In this document: piece by piece, positions 51,434 to 57,351 of the stretch
How the letters are laid out: each line of letters opens with the position of its first letter
Position numbering within the stretch: the stretch's first letter is position 1
DNA from: Natronosalvus amylolyticus
GTDB taxonomy: Archaea > Halobacteriota > Halobacteria > Halobacteriales > Natrialbaceae
DNA: 64,000 nucleotides
Assembly (NCBI RefSeq): GCF_024298845.1
Contig: NZ_CP101156.1
Coordinates: 62,001-126,000, forward strand
Direction: 5' to 3'
Made by a program: the position numbers and the translations under genes
The notes under the pieces: generated by a model
The model's database searches: none
Told to the model about the DNA's origin: nothing
The model's input: only the letters and a program-made list of their open reading frames with translations

Positions 51434-51871
51434 ATGGCAGTCGAAGCTACGAGCGCAGGCGCAATCCTCTTTCGCGACACGCGGGGCCGGCGCGAGTATC
51501 TTCTACTCAAGAGCCGCCCGGGCGACTGGGAGTTTCCGAAGGGCGGTGTCGAAGGAGATGAAGAACTACAGCAGACGGCTATCCGCGAAATCAAGGAAGA
51601 GGCAGGTATCGACCAGTTTAGACTACTCGACGGCTTTCGCGAGGACTACAGTTACGTCTTCGAAGCGAACGGCACGACGATCCACAAAACCGTCCACCTG
51701 TTCGTCGCGAAATCCTACGAAGCGAGTGCGGAGCTCTCGAAGGAACATCGCGACCTGCAGTGGCGCGATTACGAACAGGCGGTCAACACCGTCACACAGG
51801 ATGGGCCACGCGAAATCCTCGAACAGGCCCACGATTACCTCGACGATCTCGCTGAAGCAGACGAGATCTGA
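51434..51871 (+). CDS. Nudix hydrolase, diadenosine tetraphosphatase-like
   Basis: 145 residues from ATG 51434. The Nudix box is complete: GGVEGDEELQQTAIREIKEE followed by AG, with the preceding WEFPKG. SAGAILFRDTRG and KTVHLFVAKS are the pattern of bis(5'-nucleosyl)-tetraphosphatase of archaea. It removes Ap4A-type signal nucleotides or other NDP-X substrates. CTCTTAACG at 51403-51411 is a likely promoter, giving a leaderless transcript. Confidence 0.92.
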   Translation: MAVEATSAGAILFRDTRGRREYLLLKSRPGDWEFPKGGVEGDEELQQTAIREIKEEAGIDQFRLLDGFREDYSYVFEANGTTIHKTVHLFVAKSYEASAELSKEHRDLQWRDYEQAVNTVTQDGPREILEQAHDYLDDLAEADEI

Positions 51872-52915: not shown

Positions 52916-53950
52916 GTGCCCCTCTCAGACCGCGAATTCCTGTTCGAACTTCGCTGTTGTCGATGGGTCGAAGCGGCCTGGGAACCGGCTCGAGCCAACT
53001 CGAACGTCCTCGTCGCCCGCCAGCTTGGCACGAAACGCCGTCGCTGGGATACGATCGTCTTCGAGTGTGACTCCGACGCGCTCGCTCACCGTGCCAACTT
53101 CGGCCCGGAGCGACTCGACAGCGATCTGTTGCACGTCATCCGCAACGCACCCGCGGAGTGGGCTTACTATCGCGACGCCCTTCCAGACCCCGGCTATCCG
53201 TGGCGATACGTCCGTGAGGCGATACACGAAGCCGACGAGCGAGAGGTTCTCGAGACGCGACGGGCTGGAAACCGCATCGAAATCCGCCGGCGGTGGCCCT
53301 ATCGCGAGTGGGTCGATCGGATCATCGCCATCGAGAACAAACCCGACCTCGACGCGAGTGCGGCCCGGTCGCTGGGCCCCCAACTCGAGTACGACGTTGC
53401 CCTCGGGCTGGCCGACGAAGTCTGGGTCGCGACCAACCGGACGGACGAACGTGTCCAACCTGCCTTGCTCGAAGGGGTTCCCGTGCAGGCCGGCATTCTC
53501 TCACTCGATGCCGAGTCGCTCGAGGCCGAAACCGTCTGGCACCCGCGAACGCTCGCCGTCGACGAGCCGGGAACCCGCATCCTCGAGCGCCCCGATGGCG
53601 GATCACACGACGCGTCCGCCGCTCGTTTCGAGTACGTCTCCTCGGCGACGAAAGCCCGACGGCGACTCGAGATAGCCGAACGGGCCTACGAACGCGGCTG
53701 GCGTTCGTTCGTCGACACGATGCGACCCGACTGCCGCCACTTCGAACTCCGATCCAACAGTCAGTTTCTCCCCTACTGTCGAGCAAAAGAGCGATGTCAG
53801 ACTGGCCGCGAGTGTCGTGGCTCGTGTCCGGCGTTCGAGCCCGAGCCACCGGCCTGGCGGACCAAGGGATGGCCAATCGAAGGCGGGCCCGGAAAACGAT
53901 GTCGCCAGTTGCTCGAGGCTCGACGTGAGCGTCGACGGCCCGGTCGGTGA
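52916..53950 (+). CDS. DUF5787 protein, probable PD-(D/E)XK nuclease fold
   Basis: 344 residues from GTG 52916. The segment WVDRIIAIENKPDLD at 132-146 holds Asp134, Glu140 and Lys142 on a strand, the D-x(n)-E-x-K pattern of restriction-enzyme-like nucleases, followed by the helix GPQLEYDVALGLADEVWVAT with the expected Gln. The C-terminal 70 residues carry a cluster of Cys (PDCRHF, PYCRAKERCQTGRECRGSCP, GKRCRQ), which could hold an iron-sulfur cluster or zinc, as in Cas4/AddB nucleases. The family is haloarchaeal and uncharacterised; nuclease activity is inference from motifs only. Confidence 0.7.
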   Translation: MPLSDREFLFELRCCRWVEAAWEPARANSNVLVARQLGTKRRRWDTIVFECDSDALAHRANFGPERLDSDLLHVIRNAPAEWAYYRDALPDPGYPWRYVREAIHEADEREVLETRRAGNRIEIRRRWPYREWVDRIIAIENKPDLDASAARSLGPQLEYDVALGLADEVWVATNRTDERVQPALLEGVPVQAGILSLDAESLEAETVWHPRTLAVDEPGTRILERPDGGSHDASAARFEYVSSATKARRRLEIAERAYERGWRSFVDTMRPDCRHFELRSNSQFLPYCRAKERCQTGRECRGSCPAFEPEPPAWRTKGWPIEGGPGKRCRQLLEARRERRRPGR

Positions 53951-54002: not shown

Positions 54003-54500
54003 TTACGCGACGACGACCTCGAGTGCGTCCCGCTCGACGGTCAGTCGGAAGGTCGGCACGGTTCGATATTCGACCTCGACGACGTCCTTTCGTCGGAGAC
54101 TCTGTAACGCCGAGCGAACGTCCTCGGCCGAGGGGTCGATGTCGAAGGCGTCTCGCAAATCGTGGAGGACGGAGACCACGCTCTGTGAGCGCTCGTCGGG
54201 TTCGGCGAGCACCCGAACGACCTGGGCGTGTAACTCGGGCACGCGAATCTTCGACGGTGGCCCGTCTTCTTCGCTCAGCTGGACGCCCGGTTCGACGTCG
54301 ACCAGTTCGGCCGCCTCCGGCGTCGCTCGAATCAGGCTGTTATCGTCACGAAAGTAGTACTCGCTCAGTTCGTCCTCGAGAAACGAGTGGACTTCGCTGC
54401 CACTCTCGAGATCCCAGCGGTCCTGCAGTTCGGCATTTTTCGTCGGCTGTAGCTCAACCACGTCGGCCAGTCGCTTTCGGGCTACCTCAGAGAGCGTCAT
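54003..54500 (-). CDS. DUF5797 HTH-type protein
   Basis: 165 residues. An N-terminal winged-helix segment (ARKRLADVVELQPTKNAELQ, HSFLEDELSEYYFRDDN) and a second one near 100-150 (HAQVVRVLAEPDERSQSVVS, SALQSLRRKDVVEVEYRTVP) are seen; this is the haloarchaeal DUF5797 layout. It is presumably a DNA-binding regulator; the target is unknown. It is convergent with the DUF5787 gene and upstream of the agmatinase end. Confidence 0.8.
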   Translation of the reverse strand: MTLSEVARKRLADVVELQPTKNAELQDRWDLESGSEVHSFLEDELSEYYFRDDNSLIRATPEAAELVDVEPGVQLSEEDGPPSKIRVPELHAQVVRVLAEPDERSQSVVSVLHDLRDAFDIDPSAEDVRSALQSLRRKDVVEVEYRTVPTFRLTVERDALEVVVA

Positions 54501-56553: not shown

Positions 56554-57351
56554 TCAGTTGGCCGTGATCCGGGGAGCGACCAGATACTCGACAGCGCCCG
56601 TTCCGTCGGCGAACTCGTATCCCACCGAGAGCGGTTGTTCGGTGCCGAACTGGAGGTCGATGTCGACGCCGCTCGGCATCGCCCGATTGATCGCGCTCAG
56701 ATAATCGATCGAAAAGATCGAATGTGCGTCCCCTGGTTCGATATCGACGAGATCGTCGGCCGAAAGGGTCAGTGAGACGTTATCGGTATCACCTGCTGCG
56801 ATGACGGAAAACTGTCCATCGTCTTCGTCGAGGTCGAACTCGAGGTGGTTCGAAACCATCGCTGCTGCCCGGACCGACCGATCGAAGGTCGCCGAATCAG
56901 CGACGACCGTCCCACTGGGGGTAAACGCCTCGCGCGACTCCGCAGGTGGGCTGCGAATCGTCTCCGGGTCCAACAGCGCGAGCGTGTATTCCAGTTCGTC
57001 GAATCGAATCTGGAGCGTCCGCGTCGCAGAATCTAGCGAGAGTTGCACGGACTGTCCGCGGTTAGCGATACCCACGACGTCACGGAATCGCTCGAGATCG
57101 ACACCGATGTGATCGGACGTGGCCTCGAACGTTTCGAATGCGGACGGCTCGAGCGTGATGTCCGCCCAGACGACCGTTGCGGCGTCAATGGCGGTTACTC
57201 GGACGCCTTCCGGGTCGACGTACAGGTGGCACTCGTCGAAGAGCGTGTGGGCTAGTGCGAGCGTGGTTTGCAGCCGTTCGGCCTCGATTGTCGCCTGAAA
57301 CGTTTCCATCGAGTTCGTGTGTGCTGTCGTCTCCGTCTCGTTTTGGGTCAT
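56554..57351 (-). CDS. Sliding clamp PCNA, divergent form
   Basis: 265 residues (251 if starting at Met15). Both clamp domains are present: ALAHTLFDECHLYVDPEGVR, TAIDAATVVWADITLEPSAF, the inter-domain ELEYTLALLDPETIRSPP, then AAAMVSNHLEFDLDEDDG, GDAHSIFSIDYLSAINRAMP and EYLVAPRITAN at the end. Compared with the usual haloarchaeal PCNA as I remember it (start MFKAIVSAETLQ, DPANVGMVDL) this one is clearly different at many core positions. PCNA trimers tether polymerase to DNA. TTATAG at 57376-57381 supports Met1 as a leaderless start. It may be a second, perhaps virus-derived clamp. Confidence 0.9.
   Translation of the reverse strand: MTQNETETTAHTNSMETFQATIEAERLQTTLALAHTLFDECHLYVDPEGVRVTAIDAATVVWADITLEPSAFETFEATSDHIGVDLERFRDVVGIANRGQSVQLSLDSATRTLQIRFDELEYTLALLDPETIRSPPAESREAFTPSGTVVADSATFDRSVRAAAMVSNHLEFDLDEDDGQFSVIAAGDTDNVSLTLSADDLVDIEPGDAHSIFSIDYLSAINRAMPSGVDIDLQFGTEQPLSVGYEFADGTGAVEYLVAPRITAN

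Follow-up and report, generated by a model that had tools for sequence, protein, structure and literature searches.

We have analyzed a gene of the DUF5787 family in a 64,000-nucleotide stretch of the Natronosalvus amylolyticus genome (contig NZ_CP101156.1, positions 62,001 to 126,000; hereafter the window, in whose own numbering all coordinates are given). The gene is a single open frame on the forward strand (52916..53950, stop included), with a GTG start and a product of 344 amino acids. On balance we favour the interpretation that DUF5787 proteins are PD-(D/E)XK DNA nucleases specific to haloarchaea, with a catalytic core split by an insert, a site of four cysteines and a role in repair, and that one of two paralogous forms is recruited by PCNA. 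Nearly every haloarchaeon keeps these two old paralogues, which we call A (the window gene) and B. The nuclease interpretation is supported by the near-absolute conservation of E11, D45, E140, K142 and Q156 in both of them, and by a predicted model that has mainly PD-(D/E)XK enzymes as its neighbours in structure. A first-pass annotation, made from the letters of the window, had already suggested such a nuclease with a cysteine cluster; its core idea probably holds once the motif aspartate is moved from D134 to D45 and the likeness to Cas4 and AddB is taken as only general. The PCNA-interacting protein (PIP) box of the sister family B is the stronger new fact. No function has been assigned to the two proteins, which nearly all of the haloarchaea examined retain. 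A 2012 survey listed 55 core clusters unique to haloarchaea, of which only one had a predicted function (PMC3287961).

The window protein matches Pfam family PF19100 (DUF5787) over residues 32-309 with an expected value (E) of 3.4e-120, which agrees with the earlier family assignment. At E<=10 Pfam gave nothing else, and NCBIfam returned no match. A PDB sequence search with the protein was empty, and one with the family profile returned six sequences, with E from 0.3 to 2.3 and no nuclease among them. The family had been described as unannotated, and it has indeed only the DUF assignment; it was not named in our literature search, whose coverage excluded most subscription journals and all preprints. 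A protein search gave a match in 92 of 100 related genomes, mostly two matches each, of which the closer is A-type and the more distant B-type. The two forms share about 31-38% identity in a sample of a 32-row alignment. They form separate groups in a midpoint-rooted tree (86 A sequences, 56 B sequences), and the duplication is therefore old. A match to the B profile is present in 289 of the 292 genomes of the class and lacking in three (G068 and G083 of family f9, and G070 of f11). A single match was listed for G451 and G487 and at least two for the other 287 genomes, although these numbers only guide copy number, since a match can be a gene fragment. A third DUF5787 copy may be present in the genera g62 and g146, where the same listing gives at least three matches in 14 of 14 and 5 of 7 genomes, respectively.

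When the Pfam model was run against the phylum, 53 of 294 genomes matched. The 52 above the cut-off all lie within the window's own order, so that the family looks haloarchaeal, as had been proposed; the Haloferax volcanii genome, taken as a control, matches the model. The remaining match, below the cut-off in G308, lies within what looks like a methionyl-tRNA synthetase frame; we judged it a chance match and rejected it as a relative outside the haloarchaea. The loci used below for A are the best 80 of at least 550 relatives in a genome scan, all A-type by identity (62-91%); the closest named relative among the matches listed is Natronosalvus hydrolyticus (91% identity). In Natronorubrum bangense JCM 10635 an identical 16981-base DUF5787 stretch appears in both chromosome and plasmid records (L084, L085), owing either to recent duplication or to the assembly. 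A viral or mobile origin was considered and rejected: patterns matched 12 and 11 IMG/VR stretches, none of which was confirmed as a relative. The window protein had no match in PHROGs or PADLOC, where 32 members of the family gave only weak and scattered matches.

Residues were counted at 36 positions in 142 aligned sequences (86 A-type and 56 B-type). Invariant throughout are E7, E11, E19, R35, Q36, G38, R42, D45, R59, Y129, W132, E140, N141, P143, Q156, D160, R250, E255, R256, G261, R263 and C273. K142 is kept in 141 of the 142, the sole exception being an asparagine in the B protein of locus L179; this protein is perhaps inactive, or the letter may be a sequencing error. PD-(D/E)XK enzymes usually present an acidic residue in helix 1, followed by D, E-x-K and Q. 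The same layout is found here: E11 (52946-52948) in predicted helix 1 (residues 7-21, 52934..52978), D45 (53048..53050), the E140-N141-K142 motif (53333..53341) and Q156 (53381..53383) in a predicted helix of residues 147-163, all on the forward strand and all without exception except for K142. The first-pass annotation had read the core as D134-x5-E140-x-K142 followed by a helix with glutamine. These letters are present, the helix with glutamine was correctly seen, and E140 and K142 stand, but D134 does not: position 134 is E in 43, D in 41, G in 34, R in 11 and S in 4 of the sequences, with others in the remainder, and among A-type rows it is D in 22 of 81. Variation of D, E or K among orthologues had been named as evidence against the idea; there is such variation at D134, while D45 and E140 are constant and K142 nearly so. 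Position 131 was tried as an alternative and is likewise variable (D in 64 and E in 8 of 81 A rows). In the 32-row alignment, which includes both paralogues, only D45 is invariant of the acidic residues lying between helix 1 and E140, and it is likely the motif aspartate in place of D134.

The C-terminal end of B carries a PIP box, Q-x-x-[LIM]-x-x-[FYW], in 56 of 56 proteins (57 loci were collected, and L175 was removed as A-type). The form Q-x-G-L occurs in 52 of them, most commonly as QSGLDRF (19) or QAGLDRF (8), and the copy in the window's own genome ends in QSGLDRF. Shuffled B tails (n=2000) contain a PIP box in 0.75% of cases. The general consensus is given as QXXhXXaa (PMC4929162) and that of H. 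volcanii as QxxLxxFx (PMC7776575); the final aromatic residue of QXXhXXaa is mostly lacking in B. All four other proteins checked in the same genome, known binders of PCNA, have C-terminal PIP boxes, namely FEN1 (QTGLDSW), NreA (QSNLSAF), RNase HII (QTSLEGF) and the chromosomal PolB (QTGLDSF). No box was found in 24 other frames longer than 150 amino acids at these four loci, most of these frames not being genes. A further control with NucS in relatives gave no box in the final 25 residues of 30 frames; these had been picked by position, at least one of them wrongly (L189), and the control was not used. Through this motif of B, DUF5787 is linked to the clamp of replication, and B is probably bound to PCNA. 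The non-core archaeal PCNA binders reviewed are NucS, NreA/NreB and TIP, and DUF5787 is not named among PCNA binders in the available part of that review (PMC4929162). The A proteins have a tail of their own (residues 309-344, 53840..53947, forward strand), which is basic at its end and has no PIP box in the last 20 residues of any of 80 sequences.

The core of DUF5787 probably adopts the restriction-like fold, to judge from an AlphaFold model of the window protein. This model was built with 78 A-type sequences and had a mean predicted local distance difference test score (pLDDT) of 64.2 and a predicted template modelling score (pTM) of 0.63; the remaining four of the five models were worse (pLDDT 54.7 to 41.2). 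In blocks of ten residues, pLDDT was 61-85 over the core (residues 1-60 and 131-180) and 42-61 over residues 61-130. The predicted order of elements is helix 7-21, strands 30-35 and 46-51, an insert, strand 133-141, helix 147-163 and strand 168-174, which fits an alpha-beta-beta-beta-alpha-beta core split by the insert. A second-look alignment, which only re-ranks Foldseek's list and whose Z scores under 8 may mean little according to the tool's own warning, was headed by PDB entry 3dnx (Z 11.5, root-mean-square deviation (rmsd) 3.5, 141 of its 146 residues aligned). The first four rows have Z of 11.5, 9.7, 8.8 and 8.0, where the typical best for models without a clear match is 7 to 8; further entries are PaqCI (Z 9.7, rmsd 3.5, 143 residues aligned), 2okf (Z 8.0, rmsd 3.2, 110 aligned) and 2ph7 (Z 7.8, rmsd 3.0, 107 aligned). 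Restriction-like enzymes, by our reading, make up the majority of the 50 rows, including Can2, SfsA, EcoT38I, FokI, EndoMS, Bse634I, NotI and others. In a viral structure library, where no match passes E 0.001, the first rank is a phage Gp1.5, the second and third carry the name MmcB (E 0.0050 and 0.0056), and UL24, Exo8 and RecB entries stand below.

The insert between D45 and E140 (residues 53-126, 53072..53293, forward strand) may be a DNA-binding winged helix in the model. It contains predicted helices and a hairpin, with the pattern helix-RGxLExRRxGxRxxIR, and resembles a winged helix, although the likeness is weak and residues 61-130 have low model confidence. Profile searches of the PDB gave sub-threshold matches to RecX (E 0.012, positions 6-44), WBSCR18 (E 1.4) and an ArsR regulator (E 0.76, positions 32-71, spanning the helix-turn-helix and wing). 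In Pfam, again below threshold, 6 of 32 members matched PaaX (best E 0.06) and one each matched MarR_2 and HTH_10; unrelated families were also matched, for example Cytochrome_CBB3 in two members. Fur, PerR, SmtB, TubR and similar chains occur among the structure matches.

Six cysteines lie near the end of the window protein (273, 288, 294, 300, 304 and 329), in line with the six or more that the first-pass annotation had counted. Four of them form a cluster with the spacing C273-x14-C288-x11-C300-x3-C304 (53732..53827, forward strand). C273 is present in 142 of 142 sequences, and C288, C300 and C304 in 139 of the 139 rows with letters there, three A rows (L082, L094 and L138) having been truncated at residue 281 when the sequences were extracted. 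C294, inside the cluster, and C14 are variable (39 and 9 of 142, respectively). C15 in helix 1 (52958-52960) is present in 139 of 142; it is unlikely to be an obligate cluster ligand, being replaced by S, S and A in three of the 56 B proteins. The four C-terminal cysteines are likely a metal site with four ligands. The iron-staple nucleases Cas4, AddB and Dna2 similarly combine a nuclease domain with conserved C-terminal cysteines, but the Cas4 and AddB cluster is made of one N-terminal and three C-terminal cysteines (PMC3466216), whereas DUF5787 has four invariant C-terminal ones; the proposed likeness to Cas4 and AddB thus extends to the presence of a cluster and not to its arrangement. Because a related protein holds zinc instead of an iron-sulfur cluster (PMC3466216), the cysteines alone cannot separate these two.

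The conservation, the paralogy, the distribution and the PIP motif of B are observations, and the fold is a prediction. Metal binding, cleavage, PCNA binding and the pathway are inferred, and the following scheme would accommodate them. The catalytic core would comprise the helix with E11, the strand led by D45, the strand with E140-x-K142 and the helix with Q156, split by an insert that is possibly a DNA-binding winged helix, and the four-cysteine metal site (C273, C288, C300, C304) would probably shape the C-terminal domain. D45 and E140, perhaps with E11, would serve as ligands of Mg2+ or Mn2+, with K142 assisting phosphodiester hydrolysis. B would probably be recruited by the sliding clamp PCNA through its C-terminal PIP box. 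Because A has no PIP box and has a basic tail, it would reach DNA alone or through a partner. The likeliest role would be in repair coupled to replication, by cutting DNA that is branched or damaged. Should A and B prove to be DNA nucleases, the replication and repair machinery of haloarchaea would include a pair of enzymes missing from the available parts of the reviews cited, an idea that the PIP box of B makes directly testable in Haloferax volcanii. A doubtful extension of the scheme makes A and B partners in a clamp-coupled repair nuclease system found only in haloarchaea, in which B would sit on PCNA, A would supply a second active site, the cysteine cluster would be redox-active, the insert would be a winged helix, and the whole would correspond in function to the structure-specific nucleases that work in pairs in other lineages.

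Several observations weigh against the nuclease interpretation. Foldseek gave the first model no match at E 0.001 or better, and unrelated proteins headed its PDB list; the second-look rows also include chains of acetyl-CoA carboxylase and carbonic anhydrase (Z 4.6-5.1). A second model, built with 63 sequences for a 308-residue ortholog from Halalkalicoccus, failed (pLDDT 44.5, pTM 0.24), and none of its seven matches (Z 2.0-2.4) was a nuclease; its secondary structure follows the order of elements in the first model. Profile comparison by hhalign gave a probability of 0.1 each against NucS and Hjc, not above the 0.1-10.5 obtained with five decoy families, with shallow profiles (effective number of sequences (Neff) of the query 2.7). 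The L179 protein has lost the lysine, and no neighbour gene of A or B points to DNA repair. Because of the missing Foldseek match and the failed second model the fold is only probable, and the structure prediction and fold search suggested in the first-pass annotation gave a divided answer, favourable in the neighbours of the first model and unfavourable in these two respects. The same two results, together with the winged-helix chains that match the insert, would suit an arrangement of the model that arose by chance, DUF5787 then having another fold, with a winged helix and a metal cluster. We regard this as distinctly unlikely, since residues invariant in 142 sequences sit at the superfamily positions in the model, the best four Z scores equal or exceed what the tool typically gives at best for models without a clear match, and the PDB and viral libraries converge on MmcB-like proteins, if 3dnx is presumed to be one.

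Another alternative accepts the restriction-like fold and makes DUF5787 a DNA-binding or scaffold protein, or a nuclease acting on RNA. Non-catalytic members of this fold exist, and one that we take to be such, Tk-TIP26 (2czr), is among the second-look rows with Z 4.8; moreover, A adjoins an S10-like gene and B is often beside aIF2-gamma and RpoE1, genes that read as belonging to translation and transcription. A scaffold, however, would not need the full catalytic set, which is almost invariant, and the PIP box of B points to DNA; this alternative is unlikely, though it deserves some weight. We consider a nuclease of defence or CRISPR systems, comparable to Cas4 or a restriction enzyme, to be very improbable. 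The structural matches do include restriction enzymes and the CRISPR ancillary nucleases Can2 and Card1, and Cas4 likewise combines a nuclease domain with a cysteine cluster (PMC3466216). Matches in 289 of the class's 292 genomes and conserved synteny nevertheless look like those of a core gene, no IMG/VR relative was confirmed, PADLOC was silent on the window protein and gave weak scattered matches for the 32 members, and their Pfam matches contain no Cas4 model.

Among known systems, the nearest predicted fold is that of MmcB, by way of 3dnx (SPO1766), which we take to be an MmcB-like protein, and of ranks 2 and 3 in the viral library. MmcB has been described as a PD-(D/E)XK endonuclease (PMC9578287). 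DUF5787 differs from it in having the insert and the cysteine cluster and in being about twice as long as 3dnx; the Pfam matches of the 32 members contain no MmcB model, so that only the predicted fold is near. The lack of a Cas4 model among the same matches is to be read with the possible filtering of matches weaker than about E 0.1, and the absence of Cas4/AddB, Dna2 and RecB chains from the 50 second-look rows excludes nothing. EndoMS (NucS) chains do appear in the second-look alignment, with Z 5.6-5.8, but NucS has a gene of its own, which occurs alongside DUF5787 in 30 of 41 relatives. Hjc belongs to the PD-(D/E)XK superfamily and is also distinct, being present as a separate gene in 40 of 41 relatives. 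It is a small archaeal nuclease that has been reported as PCNA-activated (cited in PMC7776575).

The gene neighbourhoods of A and B are silent on function. At the 80 A loci the most frequent neighbours are a convergent DUF5797 gene (54003..54500, reverse strand; 74 loci), an upstream NUDIX gene (51455..51871, forward strand; 68 loci) and a ribosomal-S10-like gene (PF00338; 50993-51331, reverse strand), which adjoins NUDIX and DUF5787 in 67 loci. An M20-like gene, identified by reading, is found in 60 and DUF4013 in 16. DUF5797, the most conserved neighbour of A, is itself of unknown function and gave the best decoy profile score against DUF5787 (probability 10.5, E 0.003), which we read as noise. 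For B, at 16 loci and with names read from the proteins of the same genome, the neighbours are aIF2-gamma (12), a metallo-beta-lactamase (MBL)-fold gene (10) and RpoE1 (10). A divergent PCNA-like gene lies 2.6 kb downstream of A in the window (56554-57351, reverse strand; PCNA_N E 1.4e-4, PCNA_C E 2.8e-4). It was rejected as a link to A, being found in 0 of 80 A loci, some of them shortened by contig ends. The genome of the window has four PCNA_N matches, two on contig C1 and one each on C3 and C4; several clamps in one haloarchaeon are, to our knowledge, unusual.
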